Source: a virus
Strand: one strand, 5' to 3'
Virus record (IMG/VR): IMGVR_UViG_3300043540_000173
Location: 1 to 27,418 of that record
DNA length: 27,418 nt
Positions 10,615 to 22,870 of the stretch are shown piece by piece. Below the pieces are notes generated by a model. It was given only the letters and a program-made list of their open reading frames with translations, was not told the DNA's origin and made no database searches. The position numbers and the translations under genes are program-made. Numbering within the stretch: the stretch's first letter is position 1; every line of letters begins with the position of its first letter.

Positions 10615-12561
10615 TTAAAAACTACCCCAACCAGCTATATAAAAATAGTCACCATTAACAAGAGTAAATGGACTTGATGCATTAAAAGCGTATGGACTCG
10701 CACTATAATAAAGCCAACCACCTGTGCCCTGTGAGCCAATAACGCTTCTCCCATAAGGAGATGCGGCTTGGTTGACCATACCAGTAAATACTGCGTCGGT
10801 AGATGATATCGGGTGGCCAGCAAAGTAATAAGCATAACCAGCATCTCCAAAGGTGGTAGTGCTTCCAGCTGTAACCTTAATATAATAATAAACAGCATTG
10901 CCAACAACCATCATTTTTCCAACGATTGTGCCATTTCCAATACTTGGTGGAGTCCCGCTTTTACTCCAAGTTGGTGTCCAATTAAAAAAGGTTGGATATC
11001 CTTGTGGATTAGCCTGATATGAGTAATAGGGATTAGTAATAGTAGCATTTGCTAGTGTATAATCTGACCCACCCGTAATGTTGACGGTTGTATTAGTAGA
11101 GAATGAAGACGAAGTAACTACAAAATATTTATCTGTTGTTTGAGTTAATTTTATTCTTGTGCCTTTAGTAAAGATTGCTGTTCTATCTACCCCTGAAATA
11201 GTAAATGAAGTTGCAGAAGCATACGTCCAAGTGTCTCCCGATGAAACCCAACCATTAGTGTTAATGGGGTCAATATAGGATGAGCCATCATATAATTTGA
11301 CTCTCCCAGTTCCCTTACCCTTGAGATATAAATTGATGTTGGTATCATCTCCCGAAGCCTCAATGGTTGGATTTACGCCTGTTGCCGCATTTGTGATTTT
11401 GATTTGATTTACAGCCGATGTGGTAGCAGGCGTTTCAATGATTTCATTACCGTTAGTGTCAAGGATGGCTGTTTCTATTTTAGGAGAGGTGAGTTTTTTG
11501 TTGGTTAATGTCTGTGTATCGGTTGTTCCTACCAGATTTCCACTTACTCCGTGAGTAGAGGTTGAAGATGCGTGAGTTGAAACAGCTCCTGCTGACTCGA
11601 AGCTTGAGGCTGAAAACCCACTATCTTTTATTAGCTTTCCAGTCGTGCCATCAAAAGCTGCAAAGTTATTATTTGTTGCCGATGAGGGACCAACGACATC
11701 TCCAGCACCACTTCCATCTGTTCCTTTATTGCCAGTCCGAGAGAAAAGAACGGACAGAATATCACTTGCCGAGAAACTTCCAGACGAGGAGACGTGGCTG
11801 ACAGTTACTTTCCTGTATCCCGTTCCATTTACAACCAAACCTGTTATGTTGAAAACTGCGAAATTGTTCTCTGCTCCCCTTTTGGTAATTTTTATTATCC
11901 CCTTGACATTTGGGTCTGTCGAGTCGTCCCAAGTATCAATAAAAGAGGAAACATTACCACCGCCGTTTTCAAGGTTATCTATAAAAATCTGAGTAACAGA
12001 GGATATAGTGGCATTGTTAAATTTAAGCTGACCATTTCCAGGGTCGCTATCGGTTGTATCAGTATTAAAAGCATAAAGAAGTCCAGCCGAAACTCCAGCA
12101 TCTCCTTGAGGCCCCTGAGGCCCTTGCACCCCTTGTGGCCCCTGCGGGCCTTGTGATCCCGTGTCTCCCTTTTGAGCTATTAATTCCCAGTAAGAGGTGT
12201 TTGTCGGGGTTTGTCCAGTATTTGCTTGTATACAAACATAAGATGAGCCATTATAATAAACGGCGTCATCAACAGAATAAGCAGTTGAGTTGGACCAAGT
12301 TCCTCGCCAATTTAGTCCTTTATCTCCTTTGTCCCCCTTGTCTCCTTTTAAGCCTTGAGGCCCTTGAGGCCCCTGATCACCAGTATTACCTTTTTGTGCC
12401 ACCAATCGCCAGTAGGTAGTATTAGTTGGTGCTGTTCCTACAGGCGGATATAATATGCAGGTATAAGTTGAGCCATTATAGGAGACAGTATCGCTAACCT
12501 CGTATTGAGTTGAGGCATTATATTCTCCTTTCCACAGCTCTGACCATTTTTTGTCTTGCAT
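10615..12561 (-). CDS. Collagen-like tail fibre / receptor-binding protein
   Basis: The product has 648 residues. Two related modules of about 45-50 residues (6-55 and 84-128) share W.G.W/Y...Y...D.V.YNGS.Y.CI.....G..PTNT.YW.L.AQKG, resembling carbohydrate-binding CBM5/12-type folds. Each is followed by Gly-X-Y collagen-like repeats (58-82, GPQGPQ and GDKGDKGDK; and 132-156). A long beta-rich region and an aromatic C-terminal domain ending DYFYIAGWGSF follow. Collagen repeats form trimeric shafts, so this is probably a trimeric fibre binding the host surface. The ATG follows a 19-base stem-loop with no ribosome-binding site, and the gene has its own extended -10 promoter (12562-12595). No chaperone gene follows. 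Confidence 0.8.
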   Translation of the reverse strand: MQDKKWSELWKGEYNASTQYEVSDTVSYNGSTYTCILYPPVGTAPTNTTYWRLVAQKGNTGDQGPQGPQGLKGDKGDKGDKGLNWRGTWSNSTAYSVDDAVYYNGSSYVCIQANTGQTPTNTSYWELIAQKGDTGSQGPQGPQGVQGPQGPQGDAGVSAGLLYAFNTDTTDSDPGNGQLKFNNATISSVTQIFIDNLENGGGNVSSFIDTWDDSTDPNVKGIIKITKRGAENNFAVFNITGLVVNGTGYRKVTVSHVSSSGSFSASDILSVLFSRTGNKGTDGSGAGDVVGPSSATNNNFAAFDGTTGKLIKDSGFSASSFESAGAVSTHASSTSTHGVSGNLVGTTDTQTLTNKKLTSPKIETAILDTNGNEIIETPATTSAVNQIKITNAATGVNPTIEASGDDTNINLYLKGKGTGRVKLYDGSSYIDPINTNGWVSSGDTWTYASATSFTISGVDRTAIFTKGTRIKLTQTTDKYFVVTSSSFSTNTTVNITGGSDYTLANATITNPYYSYQANPQGYPTFFNWTPTWSKSGTPPSIGNGTIVGKMMVVGNAVYYYIKVTAGSTTTFGDAGYAYYFAGHPISSTDAVFTGMVNQAASPYGRSVIGSQGTGGWLYYSASPYAFNASSPFTLVNGDYFYIAGWGSF

Positions 12562-12595
12562 AAGCGTTTACACAACGCTTTTATTGATTATAACA
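12562..12595 (-). promoter_or_regulatory. Extended -10 promoter with 5'-terminal stem-loop leader (tail fibre)
   Basis: On the minus strand, TGTTATAAT (-10 hexamer at 12587-12592) is followed, after CAATAA, by AAGCGTT-GTGTA-AACGCTT (12580 down to 12562). This is a perfect 7-bp stem whose last base is immediately before ATG 12561. The expected start site is about 12580, so the entire untranslated leader would be the stem-loop. No Shine-Dalgarno is present. The promoter overlaps the end of the preceding gene. Confidence 0.75.
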
Positions 12596-13722: not shown

Positions 13723-14880
13723 TTAAAAGCCGCTTACATCCTGCTCGAGTTTTACAGCCAAGACCGCTCCATCGTCAAACATCTTAGCTCCAACTCCGAT
13801 GATACCTTTCGGCAAATCGGCGAAGCCTTTTTCTTTGTCGGCGACTTTGAGGTCAACAAACTGCAAAACCAAGTCGATAGCCCCTCGGATCATAAAGACG
13901 GCTTGCTGTTTCTGGTTTGTCCAACCATCAGCAGAGGCAGTCAGAGTTTCGCTGACTGATATATCACCAAAGCCTGTGAAGGCCATAGCAGCATCAGCTG
14001 TGCAGCGAACATATCTCTTTCTCCTCAGGATAAACTTATCCCTAATGCTGAGGTCAACATAAGTTAAACCAGCTCCAGAGCCACCTTCTACTGCAGCCTT
14101 CAAGTTTGCTCTTGAAGCAGCAGCGTTAGCACCAATCAGGACATTGCCAGGAGTTGTACCCAAAGTAGATACGAAAGTGAATTTGACGCCAGAAATCGTT
14201 ACGGTATCTCCGTTGGTTGGATTAGTGGCAATGTTCAATGTGGCGCTCCAGGGAAGGTTGTTGTTTTCAACAACAGTCCAACCCATCCAAGGTCCGACGA
14301 CACCGTTTTCCAGTGTCTCGTCTCCGAGTCGGCTCTCTCTGTCAGCTTTAGCCCTCCTCAGTTTTGCAACTGTTCTTGGGCCAAGAACTGCAGCCCTTAG
14401 AGAAGTCTCATAAGGGGCATCGAATGCACCGAGCTTACCTTCTGCCTCCTCAAGGATATCAAGGATATTTGCACTCGTAACAGTTACAGGCGAACCTGAA
14501 ATCGAGTGGAAGGCATTGGAGATTTGACCCATATAAACCTGCTCCACTCTGTTCATCAAACCTCTGCGGATTGATTCAAGAGAGTGATTGAGTAAGTCAT
14601 ATGGAGTCTGATTTTTCTCGGTGATGTCGATCTCCTCAGCAGCGTATTCGAATGTATCAACCTCAAGAGTTTGCTTTGAAGCCTTCTTTTGGTCGAATGT
14701 AATATCGTTGTGAGGAGTATAAGTTCCAGTCTGCGGATGAGAGAGAATCGGCTTGTGAGCCTTGCGACCATCCTGACGGATTATGTTTTCGAGCGACTGG
14801 TTAGCCAAATACACAGCAGTATTAGCCGTGTATAGATCGGCTTGCAGATCACCCCAAAACTCTTGTCTTATGTCATCCAT
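13723..14880 (-). CDS. Major capsid protein (HK97-fold type) with inserted beta domain
   Basis: The product has 385 residues. The N-terminal region (1-130) has acidic helices followed by VEQVYMGQISNAF. Residues 140-210 (ILDILEEAEGKL.AFDAP....RAAVLGPRTVAKLRR...) read like the long-helix and core segments of phage coat proteins. Residues about 215-320 are an inserted beta domain: GDTVTISGVKFTFVSTLGTTPGNVLIGANAAASRANLKAAVEGG is a recurring decoration-type insert. The core resumes at about 325 (QAVFMIRGAIDLVLQFVDL) and ends with GFADLPKGIIGVGAKMF.DGAVLAVKL. It follows the scaffold gene and has GGGGGTGA before the ATG. The shell-building role is inferred from position, size and fold pattern. Confidence 0.75.
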   Translation of the reverse strand: MDDIRQEFWGDLQADLYTANTAVYLANQSLENIIRQDGRKAHKPILSHPQTGTYTPHNDITFDQKKASKQTLEVDTFEYAAEEIDITEKNQTPYDLLNHSLESIRRGLMNRVEQVYMGQISNAFHSISGSPVTVTSANILDILEEAEGKLGAFDAPYETSLRAAVLGPRTVAKLRRAKADRESRLGDETLENGVVGPWMGWTVVENNNLPWSATLNIATNPTNGDTVTISGVKFTFVSTLGTTPGNVLIGANAAASRANLKAAVEGGSGAGLTYVDLSIRDKFILRRKRYVRCTADAAMAFTGFGDISVSETLTASADGWTNQKQQAVFMIRGAIDLVLQFVDLKVADKEKGFADLPKGIIGVGAKMFDDGAVLAVKLEQDVSGF

Positions 14881-14971: not shown

Positions 14972-15673
14972 TTACTGCTTCTGTTGAGCTAGATACTTTT
15001 GCCTCGCAGCCCTTGCTTCCTTCCAGGCTTTAATGCCTTCCTCAGTGTTAAAGTCAAAATCCGCAGGATTCAAAGGCTTTGAGGGATCATAATTCATAGC
15101 ATACGACCCCTTGTTTGAGCGCTTAGGAGTTGCGTTTTTTATCCGCTCTTCCCTTTCAATTTCTTCCTTTCTCGCTTGGATATAAGGAAGTTGCGCTGCC
15201 TCTCTTACAGAAATACCTTTTAATTTTGCTAAATCTTTGACTTCGGCTTTCAGCTCGTCAGGTAAAGCAAGTTCTTCAAGTTCTCTTGCCTCCAAACGCT
15301 CCGCAAGCTTCTTTTCAATCAAAGATTCAATGTCAGGTGTTTCCTGTGTTTGGGTGTTACCCTCCTTAGGATTTTCCTTCGGTTTCTCGGAAGCTTTTAG
15401 GGCTTTTTCTCTCCAGTTAATCTTTTGCTTAATCGCTCCAGATAACTTTTCCCTGTAAGATTTTTCCCTTTCGACGAGTTTGTCAAGAAGCTCGCTTTGT
15501 TCCTCAGGGTCTATCCCTAATTCCCCAGCGATTTTACTTCTGATCTCGTCTTCAGCCACTTCCTTTTGAAACTCCTTGTCGGCTTCTAGCTCTTCAGGAG
15601 TTACTTTTAAATCTTCTTCTTTATTCTGTTGTGTTTGATCGTCCATAGGACCAAATTTTTGCCAGTATGGCAT
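14972..15673 (-). CDS. Capsid scaffolding protein
   Basis: The product has 233 residues. It is very rich in Glu and Lys, helical and coiled-coil throughout, with Pro/Glu/Thr-rich breaks (about 105-115). It includes SELLDKLVEREKSYREKLSGAIKQKINWREKALKA and LEARELEELALPDELKAEVKDLAKLKGISVREA. A short C-terminal part with DYDPSKPLNPADFDF is followed by the basic stretch EARAARQKYLAQQKQ, as expected for the coat-binding end of scaffolds. Its position directly before the major capsid gene is the usual one. ATG 15673 has no Shine-Dalgarno; a small hairpin touches it, and an intrinsic terminator lies 21 bp upstream, so expression may need read-through or antitermination. Confidence 0.75.
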   Translation of the reverse strand: MPYWQKFGPMDDQTQQNKEEDLKVTPEELEADKEFQKEVAEDEIRSKIAGELGIDPEEQSELLDKLVEREKSYREKLSGAIKQKINWREKALKASEKPKENPKEGNTQTQETPDIESLIEKKLAERLEARELEELALPDELKAEVKDLAKLKGISVREAAQLPYIQARKEEIEREERIKNATPKRSNKGSYAMNYDPSKPLNPADFDFNTEEGIKAWKEARAARQKYLAQQKQ

Positions 15674-15685
15674 CTACATAAGTAG
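15674..15685 (-). repeat. Small hairpin abutting the scaffold start codon
   Basis: On the minus strand CTAC-TTAT-GTAG immediately precedes ATG 15673, and the A of the ATG can add a fifth pair. The sequence differs from the AGCGTT-type stems at three other starts, but the arrangement (hairpin touching ATG, no ribosome-binding site) is the same. A 4-5 bp stem alone is weak evidence. Confidence 0.4.
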
Positions 15686-15693
15686 AAATCAAA

Positions 15694-15717
15694 TCAAAAA
15701 ACCGCCCTTTGGCGGTC
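15694..15717 (-). terminator. Intrinsic terminator upstream of the scaffold gene
   Basis: On the minus strand ACCGCC-AAAG-GGCGGT (15716 down to 15701) is a perfect 6-bp GC-rich stem with a 4-base loop. It is followed by a run of T (overlapping the stem end) and then GATTT. This is a textbook Rho-independent terminator oriented to end the leftward transcript starting near 15802. Confidence 0.9.
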
Positions 15718-15802
15718 AAGTCGGGGAGCAAGAAAGCGTTGTGACGAACTTGCACCCCTACTAAACCGTCAAGCTTCACAACGCTTTCTATGTCAATTTG
15801 CT
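15694..15802 (-). ncRNA. Putative small RNA or attenuated leader with 14-bp arms
   Basis: A transcript from the extended -10 promoter at 15809-15817 would start near 15802 and end at the terminator at 15694-15717, giving about 105 nt with no convincing reading frame. Its main structure is a perfect 14-bp stem (15776-15789 with 15731-15744). Inside it, after an internal loop, CTTG/CAAG pairs around a 17-base apical loop containing GTAGGGGTG. The 3' arm includes CACAACGCTTT, an 11-base perfect complement of the leaders at 12562-12580 and 22834-22855. It may act in trans on those mRNAs, or in cis as an attenuator of the scaffold/capsid operon. No known RNA family is recognised. Confidence 0.6.
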
Positions 15803-15808
15803 GATTTA

Positions 15809-15817
15809 ATTATATCA
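15809..15817 (-). promoter_or_regulatory. Extended -10 promoter of the putative small RNA
   Basis: On the minus strand TGATATAAT (hexamer at 15809-15814) matches the extended -10 consensus perfectly. It is the same as the boxes upstream of the 22831, 18913 and 12561 genes. There is no good -35 at 17 bp; a TTGACA lies too close. It lies just downstream of the stop of the preceding gene. Confidence 0.7.
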
Positions 15818-17034: not shown

Positions 17035-18528
17035 TCACAATCCATAGTTTTTTTGAATAATACCCTTTCTTGCTTCTCTTTGTTGCCTTAATACCGCTTG
17101 TTTATACTCGTCAATCGGTGCTTCTGCTATCTCAAGTTGCATTGCTAAACTATCAAGCGTGTCATCGTGTGCTCCTTTAGGAAAAACTACCATTTCTTTC
17201 TCTAAATCTCCGCATTCTCCTTCAATGTGGAAAATTCCTCCTGAAGCGTAGCGTGGTATAAGCCCTCTAATCCTTACCTCTTTTTGAGTCTTGTTGTGTT
17301 TTAATGGCACTATGTTTGGAAACTTATCTCGCCTTAAACATTCCTCATCTAAAAATGGTTTAATTGCTTTCAAGTAAACTGTCTCCTCAATTCCGATTTT
17401 CTCAAATCCTTCATCGTGCAAAGCGAAGATATAATTTATCAGCTCTTTTGAGTCAAAATGCACTCTCATTGCTTTTAAATTCCATTTATTTTGTTTATCA
17501 ACATAATTCCTGACAATTCCTGTATAGTCATTGTCTGCTTCTTTTCCACCTGGGTCGATTGTGGCAAATTTACGGGTATCTAAAGCCTCAACCTCAGCCC
17601 AAGACCGATATTTTATCCAAGTCTCTTTGAATTCTTGATTTTCTGAAGTAATAGGTGTGCCTTGATACAAAGCTGAAAACTCATAAGGTCCAAGAGTGCT
17701 TTCTGTTCTCCTTATCTTCTCAATGGGAAACTTTTCTGGCCATAATGCTTCCCCTTTTTTCCTAAAAGTCTCATCTTCAGTTGCAATTGCAGGAAAGTTG
17801 ATAATCTTCCATTTATCATAATTTTCAGTATCTTCTGCCTCATCCTGTTTTTGCTTTTCAATTAGTCTCCCCACAAGGTCATCGGTGTGCCAGCGGGTGT
17901 TGATAACAATAATTGCAGTTGCACCTTCTTGTCGGGTATAGAAAGTAGAGCGAAACCAATCCCACCTTGAATTACGGATCACTTCCGACTCTGCTTCCTC
18001 TCGGTTCTTGAAAATATCATCAACTATCCCAATCTTAAAACCTGAACCAGTAAAAGCACCTCCAGCACCAGTAGCCATATAGCTTCCACCTTCTCCTGTC
18101 TTCCAATATCCTTTTGCTTTGGTATCAGCTCTTAATCGAGTTGAAAATATTTTCTGGTATTGAGGCGTTTGCATTACATCTCTTGTCTCTTGACCAAATT
18201 TAGTGGCAAGCTCTCCTGAGTAAGAGGCTACAATAATCGGCCAATCGGGATGGTGGCCAAGAACCCAAGCGGGAAACTTGATGGTGGCTATGTTGCTTTT
18301 TCCGTGCCGTGGTGGACATTGAATGATAATTCTTGCATCTTCTCCCCTCTCTACTTTCTCAAGAGCAGATTGCAAGATAGTAGCCAACGACTCGTGAAAC
18401 CAAGTATCCTGATAATTGCGGTCTATGGCTATCGCAAAATCAATCAGATTTTTCTTTGCTTGATGTATTACTATCGCCTCGCCCTTTTGCAAGGATACGC
18501 TCGGCGATTCTTTGGATTTGTTTTTCAT
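17035..18528 (-). CDS. Terminase large subunit
   Basis: The product has 497 residues and is the ATP-driven DNA packaging motor and nuclease. ATPase domain: Walker A-like CPPRHGKSN (71-79), Walker B GIVDD (167-171) and the coupling-type motif NTRWHTDDLV (210-219). RNase H-like nuclease domain: Asp325 in FATIDPGG, Glu381/Glu382 in GIEETVY and Asp455/Asp456 in HDDTLDSLA. Length is normal for the family. ATG 18528 lies well inside the 3' end of the small-subunit gene (89-bp overlap) and has no ribosome-binding site. A TTG at 18531 precedes it. Translation may therefore be coupled, or the true start may be an unusual codon downstream. Confidence 0.95.
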   Translation of the reverse strand: MKNKSKESPSVSLQKGEAIVIHQAKKNLIDFAIAIDRNYQDTWFHESLATILQSALEKVERGEDARIIIQCPPRHGKSNIATIKFPAWVLGHHPDWPIIVASYSGELATKFGQETRDVMQTPQYQKIFSTRLRADTKAKGYWKTGEGGSYMATGAGGAFTGSGFKIGIVDDIFKNREEAESEVIRNSRWDWFRSTFYTRQEGATAIIVINTRWHTDDLVGRLIEKQKQDEAEDTENYDKWKIINFPAIATEDETFRKKGEALWPEKFPIEKIRRTESTLGPYEFSALYQGTPITSENQEFKETWIKYRSWAEVEALDTRKFATIDPGGKEADNDYTGIVRNYVDKQNKWNLKAMRVHFDSKELINYIFALHDEGFEKIGIEETVYLKAIKPFLDEECLRRDKFPNIVPLKHNKTQKEVRIRGLIPRYASGGIFHIEGECGDLEKEMVVFPKGAHDDTLDSLAMQLEIAEAPIDEYKQAVLRQQREARKGIIQKNYGL

Positions 18529-18913
18529 CAAAGGTATGGGTTATTTCCCCTTTTAGTTTTGTCTCCTCCTCCATTCCGTGATTTGCAGACAAAATTAGTT
18601 TGGTGATGGTTGGGTTATAGTATCCTGCTAATCCTTCGTCTATCAGTCGCTGAAATTGCTCTTGTTTTATCAGTTCCAATCCCTTTGCTACTTTAGGGTG
18701 AGCTTCTTCCCAATTAAATAGTGTTTGTTTGGTAACGCCCAAAAAACGAGCAAAGCCTTCAATTGTTGGAAGTTTTACTCTGAGACGGACAACGGGAGAG
18801 TGCTTGCCATCCCTCACAACTTCAGTCTCGTCTTGTCGTGAAGCAAGGTATTTTTCTACTTTTTTGAGAAATGTCTTACTGTTGAATTTTGTTGGTCTGC
18901 CACCTTTTTTCAT
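18440..18913 (-). CDS. Terminase small subunit
   Basis: The product has 157 residues. The N-terminus is basic (KKGGRPTKFNSKTFLKKVEKYLASR). Residues 50-75 hold a helix-turn-helix (LPTIEGFARFLGVTKQTLFNWEEAHPKVAKGLELI), which would recognise the packaging site. A helical middle (GLAGYYNPTITKLILSANHGMEEETKLKGEITHTFDEKQIQRIAERIL) is typical of terminase small subunits, including the NP-TKLILSAN-GM motif. It lies directly before and overlaps the large-subunit gene. ATG 18913 is touched by a stem-loop leader with an extended -10 promoter. The product forms a ring that loads the large subunit onto DNA. Confidence 0.9.
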   Translation of the reverse strand: MKKGGRPTKFNSKTFLKKVEKYLASRQDETEVVRDGKHSPVVRLRVKLPTIEGFARFLGVTKQTLFNWEEAHPKVAKGLELIKQEQFQRLIDEGLAGYYNPTITKLILSANHGMEEETKLKGEITHTFDEKQIQRIAERILAKGRGDSNTSSKEKSD

Positions 18914-18964
18914 AGCGTTATGCTGGGTTTGATAACCTTTCCAACGCTTTAGTCTATTATAGCA
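18914..18964 (-). promoter_or_regulatory. Extended -10 promoter with stem-loop leader (terminase)
   Basis: On the minus strand TGCTATAAT (hexamer 18956-18961) is followed, after AGACTA, by AAGCGTTGG near the expected start site (about 18949). The 5' AGCGTT (18943-18948) pairs with AACGCT (18914-18919), which immediately precedes ATG 18913. The 23-base loop has an inner GGTT/AACC hairpin and contains GGAAAGG. This is the long-loop version of the leaders at the 12561 and 22831 genes. Confidence 0.7.
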
Positions 18965-21403: not shown

Positions 21404-22831
21404 TTATGAATTAGTCATTTTCCAGCCGTTGACGGTATAAATCCATTTTTTACCAGTTGAGTCTTTCCATACTGTGCCAACACCGCCAGCAGGTGAAAAT
21501 GCAGGTGCGCCTGCCATCGTTCCTATTGAATTGCCAAACACCTCATCCCATATAAGGTCTACATTGACTTGTGGAATTTTTGTTTCCGTTGTCGTTGGCG
21601 TTCCTCCGCTTACTTTGTATCCTGCTTCCCTAAGTTTATCTCTTAAGAACGAGGTTGTATCAAAGCTACTTTCTCCAGTAACTGCTTTCCTGTAATAGTA
21701 TTTGTTCCCTTTGCTGTCTGTAATCGTAATAAGTTGATTTTGAGGAACACTTTTGGGATCAACGACGGCAACATATCCCGAGGTTGACATTTTATTTGAT
21801 AAATCTCTGACTTCATTAGCGTATTGAACATCGGCAAGTTTTTTGTTGACTGTTTCTATACTATCGTTGAGCGTTACTCCTGATTGAGCCAACAGTAGGG
21901 CTGTATCAGGATTAACCATCAATTGCTTGATATAATCTGCTGTTTTAGTGGTCTGCTCTAGGTCAAACTTGAGTAGATTGATTTGTTCTTTTGCTACTTC
22001 TTGACTCTTGTTATCAAGATTAATAATGTCTCGGTTTGCTAAATTTAAAACTGTATCATAGTAAGCTAGTCTATCTTTTCTATCCTGAGCTATTGCGTTT
22101 ACCGACCTATCTATTGATTGATAGGCATTTGCAAGATAAGTATTTTGCAGGCTTACTACAGCATTAATAACTCCTGCTCGTGCCGCAATGTCGTCCATTG
22201 TCTTTTGGATGCGTGGGTTACGGATTGCAGCCAAGCCTGTCACTTCTTTTTGTTGTCTGATAAGTTGATTTCCTTCTGTTAAGAGTTGATCTAATTCGTC
22301 TAAAAGTTGTCTTTGTTGAGATAAAACTACATCCGTTCCTAATCTTTCCCTTTCTGTTTTTTCTAAAGTTTCCCTAAATGGGGTTGTCAAGGTGCTTACC
22401 CCCTGCACAGCCTCAGCTTCTCTTTTCTTTGCTGCTTCAAGTTCGGCCTGCGTTTGAGCTTGGTCTTGTGCAAGTCTTTGCTCTAAGGCTTTCCTTGCAG
22501 CTTCAACTTCGGCATTTAATCCTGAAACATAATTTTGTGTTGAGCCCGTGATATAAGATGGAGTTACAGGAGCTTGAATGTTGGCTACACTCACTTTGTC
22601 CAAGTAGTCATTGAATTGTTGAAGTGAAACACCTTGAGCTGCAGCAGATTGAGCTTTTACTTCCTGCGAAACCGCTTGTCCTGCTCCTTGTTGGTTGGAC
22701 CAAGGATGAATAACACCTGGATCTGAAAACGTCCCATTCCAATATTGACGGCCTTGATACCATCCCCCTGTTTGAAAACCACCTGCTGGAGGTTTTATTC
22801 CCAATTGTTCTGGTGTGTAAATTCCCGACAT
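21404..22831 (-). CDS. Coiled-coil virion protein, second ejection-protein candidate
   Basis: The product has 475 residues. The N-terminus is Gly/Pro/Gln-rich (about 1-60). The centre (about 100-330) is a long Ala/Gln/Glu coiled coil (EVEAARKALEQRLAQDQAQTQAELEAAKKREAEAV; then LDELDQLLTEGNQLIRQQKEVTG). The C-terminal region (about 340-475) is globular with SKGNKYYYRKAV and a terminal DSTGKKWIYTVNGWKM. Paired with the 730-residue gene downstream, it fits the podovirus pattern of two or three internal proteins, but no sequence family is recognised. It has its own extended -10 promoter, and a stem-loop ends two bases before the ATG without a ribosome-binding site. Confidence 0.6.
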   Translation of the reverse strand: MSGIYTPEQLGIKPPAGGFQTGGWYQGRQYWNGTFSDPGVIHPWSNQQGAGQAVSQEVKAQSAAAQGVSLQQFNDYLDKVSVANIQAPVTPSYITGSTQNYVSGLNAEVEAARKALEQRLAQDQAQTQAELEAAKKREAEAVQGVSTLTTPFRETLEKTERERLGTDVVLSQQRQLLDELDQLLTEGNQLIRQQKEVTGLAAIRNPRIQKTMDDIAARAGVINAVVSLQNTYLANAYQSIDRSVNAIAQDRKDRLAYYDTVLNLANRDIINLDNKSQEVAKEQINLLKFDLEQTTKTADYIKQLMVNPDTALLLAQSGVTLNDSIETVNKKLADVQYANEVRDLSNKMSTSGYVAVVDPKSVPQNQLITITDSKGNKYYYRKAVTGESSFDTTSFLRDKLREAGYKVSGGTPTTTETKIPQVNVDLIWDEVFGNSIGTMAGAPAFSPAGGVGTVWKDSTGKKWIYTVNGWKMTNS

Positions 22832-22833
22832 AT

Positions 22834-22870
22834 GCGTTGTCTAACACAACGCTTTTATTAAATTATATCA
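22834..22870 (-). promoter_or_regulatory. Extended -10 promoter with 5' stem-loop leader (475-aa virion gene)
   Basis: On the minus strand TGATATAAT (hexamer 22862-22867) precedes TTAATAAAAGCGTTGTG. GCGTTGT and ACAACGC (22846-22852 with 22834-22840) form a perfect 7-bp stem with loop GTTAG. The stem ends two bases before ATG 22831. The expected start site is about 22855, two to three bases before the stem. No Shine-Dalgarno is present. Confidence 0.75.

Follow-up and report, generated by a model that had tools for sequence, protein, structure and literature searches.

The leader described here lies on the minus strand of a virus record of 27.4 kb (the window, meaning the whole stretch of DNA analyzed), directly upstream of the genes for a putative scaffold and the major head protein (Table 1). 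It opens with an extended -10 promoter element, from which a transcription start at approximately 15802 is predicted, and this is followed by a perfect 14-bp stem with a 31-nt loop and then by an intrinsic terminator, all three being oriented on the minus strand. These elements had been described in an earlier note on this DNA and each was found to be present. Although the terminator pattern by itself occurs at chance density in the window (3 found vs. 2.3 expected), it is kept in relatives. The absence of evident coding capacity, also claimed there, was upheld; the longest frame is of 29 codons, starts with GTG, runs off the end and has no Shine-Dalgarno sequence. When the fold of the 110-nt RNA was compared to that of 200 dinucleotide shuffles, a z of -4.1 was obtained and none of the shuffles was as good.

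Table 1. Features of the scaffold-capsid leader, its downstream genes and other A-leaders in the window.
Feature	Position	Strand	Sequence or remark
Extended -10 promoter element	15809..15817	-	TGATATAAT; TATAAT at 15814-15809
Segment A	15776..15789	-	AGAAAGCGTTGTGA; 5' arm of 14-bp stem; core AAGCGTTGTG is the recurrent 5'-leader motif of the phage
Segment B	15749..15772	-	TTGACGGTTTAGTAGGGGTGCAAG; within A:A' loop; self-folds (a:b) or pairs with B'
Segment A'	15731..15744	-	TCACAACGCTTTCT; 3' arm of 14-bp stem; in apical loop of B:B'
Segment B'	15709..15732	-	CTTGCTCCCCGACTTGACCGCCAA; complement of B; 3' end is the terminator 5' arm
P3 intrinsic terminator hairpin and six-T run	15696..15717	-	hairpin GACCGCCAAAGGGCGGTT at 15717-15700, then six T
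Cas12a-repeat-like hairpin	15672..15689	-	ATTTCTACTTATGTAGAT; in 19-nt insertion absent from L002
Small hairpin	15661..15671	-	GCCATACTGGC; then A-rich stretch and AGTCCTATGGAC-type start; common to most relatives
Putative scaffold gene	14972..15646	-	probable start ATG 15646; position before major head protein
Major head (capsid) protein	13723..14880	-	phrog_267, E 9.3e-17
Standard A-leader, 475-aa ORF (21404-22831)	22832..22867	-	TATAAT, AAGCGTTGTGttagACAACGC, ATG
Standard A-leader, terminase small subunit (18440-18913)	18914..18961	-	TATAAT, AAGCGTTGGA..TAACGCT, ATG
Standard A-leader, tail-fibre-like ORF (10615-12561)	12562..12592	-	TATAAT, AAGCGTTGTGTAAACGCTT, ATG

A covariance-model search of the whole window with Rfam 15 at gathering score returned a tRNA as the sole match, and a search with the predicted element matched no family, with nothing credible at E values up to 10. 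Nothing on the leader was found among openly licensed papers. The conserved leader RNA appears to be previously uncatalogued. An element on the antisense strand was also considered and rejected, as the covariance model scored 81 bits in the forward direction against 20 in reverse and the promoter and U-tract are found on the sense strand. A hammerhead-like CUGACGA in one relative (L023) was likewise rejected, being neither conserved nor matched in Rfam.

The protein encoded next to the leader had no family match and is labeled as scaffold solely by its position before the major head protein. Its start is probably the ATG at 15646, the AGTCCTATGGAC context of which is common to most relatives, rather than an ATG further upstream in the same frame (15673), which falls within a 19-nt insertion missing from the close relative L002. 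The earlier statement that the scaffold ATG is without a ribosome-binding site is borne out, in that no Shine-Dalgarno sequence precedes ATG 15646. The start context (window 15640-15650) is strongly conserved and is itself a small inverted repeat (GTCC-TAT-GGAC). In most relatives the scaffold start has no Shine-Dalgarno sequence; GGAGG is present in four of them (L019, L023, L064, L070).

The capsid protein and the stem served as queries in searches for relatives. The element was identified at the same place, ahead of the genes for the putative scaffold and the capsid protein and 8-46 nt past the stop codon of the upstream gene, in 20 distinct phage relatives. It is composed of two interleaved inverted repeats in the order A-B-A'-B', the 3' end of which overlaps a third hairpin (P3), with B-B' complementarity spanning 24-30 positions between the loop of the stem and the sequence just 3' of the stem. 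By an automatic joint score of A-B-A'-B', members reached 70-86, the best of all shuffles 62 and non-members no more than 59. P3 is a U-tailed terminator in the window and in L006, L024, L028, L045, L046, L065, L069, and L073/L074, and the leader of L081 also has a T-run; nine of the 20 members have no U-tract terminator. The intrinsic terminator sits between promoter and gene in the window and in about half of the members.

To assess covariation, 17 members were aligned with MAFFT without any fitting to the structure, and the alignment was compared with 500 shuffles of it. Pairs changed on both sides numbered 18 (11.2 in shuffles) and cells changed on both sides numbered 63 (24.7 in shuffles), values reached by none of the 500 shuffles. 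Paired cells amounted to 87%, falling to 33-43% when the segments were slid by 1-3 columns. Both helices (A:A' and B:B') covary, B:B' strongly so with double changes at 14 of its 20 pairs, and B:B' was independently selected by RNAalifold. A point against is that G.U and A.C occur about equally often in B:B', except when column 36 is left out of the count. The same architecture, with different A and B sequences, occurs in a diverged AACCCTTGTAA clade (L024, L046, L081) whose capsid proteins are approximately 50% identical. Promoter-like sequences accompany the element, with -10 boxes scoring at least 7 just 5' of A in 50% of members against 8% of shuffles. The second helix and the recurrence of the stem's 5' arm, which is treated below, were both absent from the earlier reading. 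The leader is more than a hairpin and a terminator.

No copy of the element was found elsewhere in relatives that lack it before the scaffold gene. When placed on a capsid tree of 36 phages, the element requires 4-6 changes, a pattern consistent with an old element that has undergone several losses or replacements. Inverted repeats of the type AACCCTTGTAA..TTACAAGGGTT were also observed in four apparently unrelated contigs (L099, L100, L101, and L102); these palindromes were rejected as further members because B:B' is absent. Phages related to MW202577.1 (L031, L077, L084, and L076) have a different layout before the scaffold gene, namely two hairpins, one long and one terminator-like, that share CAGTG as the 3' arm of the former and the 5' arm of the latter, the T-run being weaker in L076. 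In these leaders too, competing structures appear to precede the scaffold gene.

The host of the phage is probably a member of the Patescibacteria. Among the relatives, L045 comes from a 39-kb contig assigned by binning to Candidatus Shapirobacteria and a second one from a short contig assigned to Clostridiales, binning being no proof of host in either case. A search of 380 patescibacterial genomes found the element in the Shapirobacteria MAG only, and no relative turned up when genome contigs were initially scanned for terminase.

Between the leader and the scaffold gene, the hairpin at 15672-15689 is identical in 17 of its 18 positions to the 3' end of a Cas12a repeat. This repeat belongs to an array found beside Cas12a in a genome (G415) of the same order as the Shapirobacteria MAG, the presumed host order. 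The chance expectation of such a match in the window is 0.003. The hairpin is solitary and intergenic and represents a partial repeat with the 3' handle only. Cas12a is present in one of 43 genomes of the presumed host order. The exact ATTTCTACTTATGTAGAT hairpin was not found in the 380 patescibacterial genomes, and it occurs in five other IMG/VR contigs, in several apparently inside genes. Solitary repeat units (Racr) have been shown to inhibit type V-A CRISPR (PMC10651486), and the hairpin in the window may be such a unit, an RNA anti-CRISPR of the type V-A kind. It resembles Racr in that its 18-nt hairpin corresponds to the 3' portion of a genuine Cas12a repeat, but differs in having the 3' handle alone, and it is separate from the leader RNA. 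Two adjacent Cas12a-like repeats, forming a mini-array, were also seen in a 224-kb phage contig (L097, 7542-7608).

Segment A was found to recur well beyond the capsid leader. Across eight phage genomes, AGCGTTG occurs 3-12 nt after a -10 box at 26 sites, with 0.5 expected from shuffles. All but three of these (23/26) precede another late gene rather than capsid, 15-45 nt before the ATG of a long ORF, and the usual form is a short hairpin at the 5' end, AAGCGUUG..CAACGCUU, with the AUG immediately after it. In most of the non-capsid leaders the 3' arm (AACGCTT, ACAACGC) abuts the ATG, and 22 of the 23 have no Shine-Dalgarno sequence. Four A-leaders, counting the capsid copy, are found in the window. 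All three sites of G001 have GTAA and both of those in G007 have GCATTG. Such concerted variation within a genome suggests either a trans partner common to the sites or their homogenization. A role for A solely as a promoter DNA element was rejected, as its distance from the -10 box ranges from 4 to 25 nt; in the capsid leaders of the window and L006 this distance is 20-25 nt compared to the usual 6-7, which argues that A acts as RNA and not only as promoter DNA. Sharing of A with other late messages suggests an RNA-level control system for the structural genes of these phages.

Where relatives lack A, the -10 box and the ATG are frequently separated by 3-14 nt (up to approximately 40% of ORFs in G003, G007, and W01), which suggests that leaderless transcripts are widespread among them. 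Given this layout, an A-hairpin resembles a leader that has been added between a promoter and its AUG. Boxes resembling TGnTATAAT were noted 3-14 nt before the ATG of many genes in L031, L124-L125 (G003), and L128-L129 (G007).

The distance from A' to B' is 0-2 nt in members, with an overlap of 2 nt in the window. Because B' begins right after A', full A:A' and B:B' pairing is sterically incompatible; the two can hardly coexist and the leader therefore looks bistable, a prediction well supported by sequence. When folding was forced, fold A consisted of A:A', with B self-folded as a:b, followed by P3, and fold B of the B:B' hairpin with A' inside a loop of 14-17 nt. The energy gap between them is at most approximately 9 kcal/mol in 18 of the 20 members. 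Predicted barriers between the folds are large, so that the choice of fold would be made during transcription. Forcing fold B abolishes the terminator hairpin in L006, L024, L028, L045, L046, L073, and L074, while P3 persists in the window, in L065 and L069, and largely in L081. The in-loop a:b hairpin is kept in members (mean z -1.7). B:B' has a single conserved mismatch, A.C at columns 36/101; its A belongs to the a:b hairpin and its C to P3, as would be expected if both folds were selected.

A promoter, a covarying A-B-A'-B' arrangement, a terminator overlapping it in about half of the members and the recurrence of A after -10 boxes can all be read from the genomes. From these we infer attenuation, switching, a trigger and a trans factor reading A, and propose that the scaffold-capsid leader is an elaborated copy of a phage-wide 5' leader that would work as a bistable attenuator, a proposal in which our confidence is evenly balanced. 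A:A' would form first on the emerging RNA, with B self-folded in its loop. B' would then be left unpaired and its end would make the terminator, giving an RNA of approximately 105 nt. If A or A:A' were engaged, either by a phage factor recognizing A or by the ribosome finishing the upstream gene, B would pair with B', the terminator would be lost in most of the members that bear one, and polymerase would reach the capsid genes. Against the proposal stand the persistence of P3 under forced fold B in the window, L065, L069, and largely L081, the preference of the window sequence for fold A, and the nine members that lack a U-tract terminator. Given these nine, termination can be only part of the function, and in them the switch would instead bear on the stability of the leader or on translation.

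Several other explanations were weighed against a bistable attenuator. The leader could be a non-switching 5' stabilizer or translation leader, the A hairpin protecting the 5' end or positioning the AUG and the capsid copy being merely larger. Standard A-leaders are indeed short 5' hairpins ending at AUG, relatives without A are leaderless-like, half of the capsid leaders have no terminator and the phage is mostly without Shine-Dalgarno sites. However, the interleaved, covarying second helix of 24-30 nt and the double constraint at column 36 are both left unexplained, and we consider this explanation unlikely.

The segment order A, B, A', B' interleaves the helices as required for an H-type pseudoknot, and covariation in both helices would also agree with a long pseudoknot serving as an autoregulatory operator bound by a phage protein (e.g., the scaffold, the capsid or a small protein whose gene lies immediately 5'). 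By known geometry, the loop length is insufficient for both helices at once, the 0-2 nt between A' and B' being too short to cross a stem of 9-14 bp unless the outer part of A:A' opens; partial pairing may occur. No RNA-binding family was found among the neighboring proteins, and the pseudoknot operator seems quite unlikely.

The earlier note had proposed a small RNA or an attenuator. In the window, fold A, the terminator fold, is favored by 17 kcal/mol and the antiterminator-like fold is weak, and given this clear dominance mostly the RNA of approximately 105 nt would be expected. With its own promoter and strong terminator, this RNA could be a free, trans-acting regulatory small RNA, the capsid gene being downstream by positional accident. 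That would be very unlikely given that the element is always immediately 5' of the same gene, that nine members have no terminator and that A recurs within mRNA leaders. The earlier interpretation is thus supported in part. Of the two proposals, an attenuator before the capsid genes fits better, the element being syntenic and B:B' competing with the stem, and the small RNA fits less.

A pair of relatives, L073 and L074, have the same sequence over 3 kb to each side of the leader (at least 6 kb in total) and show four differences, all in B. B of L074 is a perfect complement of B', and fold B is predicted to win by 20 kcal/mol, whereas in L073 fold A wins by 5. The difference may have arisen by a template switch or be an assembly artefact. 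That B:B' complementarity in general stems from template-switch correction of imperfect palindromes at replication, rather than from selection on RNA structure, would be in line with this pair but is highly improbable. In all other members B:B' complementarity is intermediate, the mismatches are conserved and the a:b hairpin, which perfect correction destroys, is kept. As natural alleles in which four changes shift the predicted balance by 25 kcal/mol, L073 and L074 make the switch model directly testable.

A broader and more tentative possibility, doubtful at present, extends the bistable attenuator to the other A-leaders. Late messages would share an RNA tag, AAGCGUUGUG, in the form of an AUG-abutting hairpin that replaces the Shine-Dalgarno sequence and is read by a co-evolving phage factor, and the capsid copy would be a two-state switch through which the same factor times capsid expression. 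To our knowledge, next to nothing has been learned about how late genes are controlled in phages whose hosts are uncultivated and probably patescibacterial. A capsid-linked RNA without an Rfam family, sharing its first strand with the leaders of other structural genes, represents a concrete and testable control element, and the A motif offers a way to recognize late transcription units in this phage group.

Among known systems, the leader can be compared with attenuators that have mutually exclusive terminator and antiterminator hairpins (trp/tna, T-box, riboswitches). It resembles these in being a 5' leader with mutually exclusive helices, located just 5' of the regulated gene, in which the 5' arm of the terminator is shared with an alternative helix. 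It differs from them in having no leader peptide, T-box or known aptamer, in its interleaved A-B-A'-B' order, in a terminator that is dispensable in half of the members and in preceding a capsid operon. Leaders and stabilizers of the ompA type also place a short hairpin at the extreme 5' end of the mRNA, but in the phage many genes share one conserved 5'-strand sequence and the hairpin is followed at once by an AUG that has no Shine-Dalgarno sequence. The antitermination leaders nut of lambda and put of HK022 are recurrent RNA elements near the 5' end of phage operons with a terminator downstream. The phage element would be like them in recurring as a 5' RNA element before a terminator; unlike them, it directly adjoins AUGs, and no resemblance to the box elements or the put hairpins was established.
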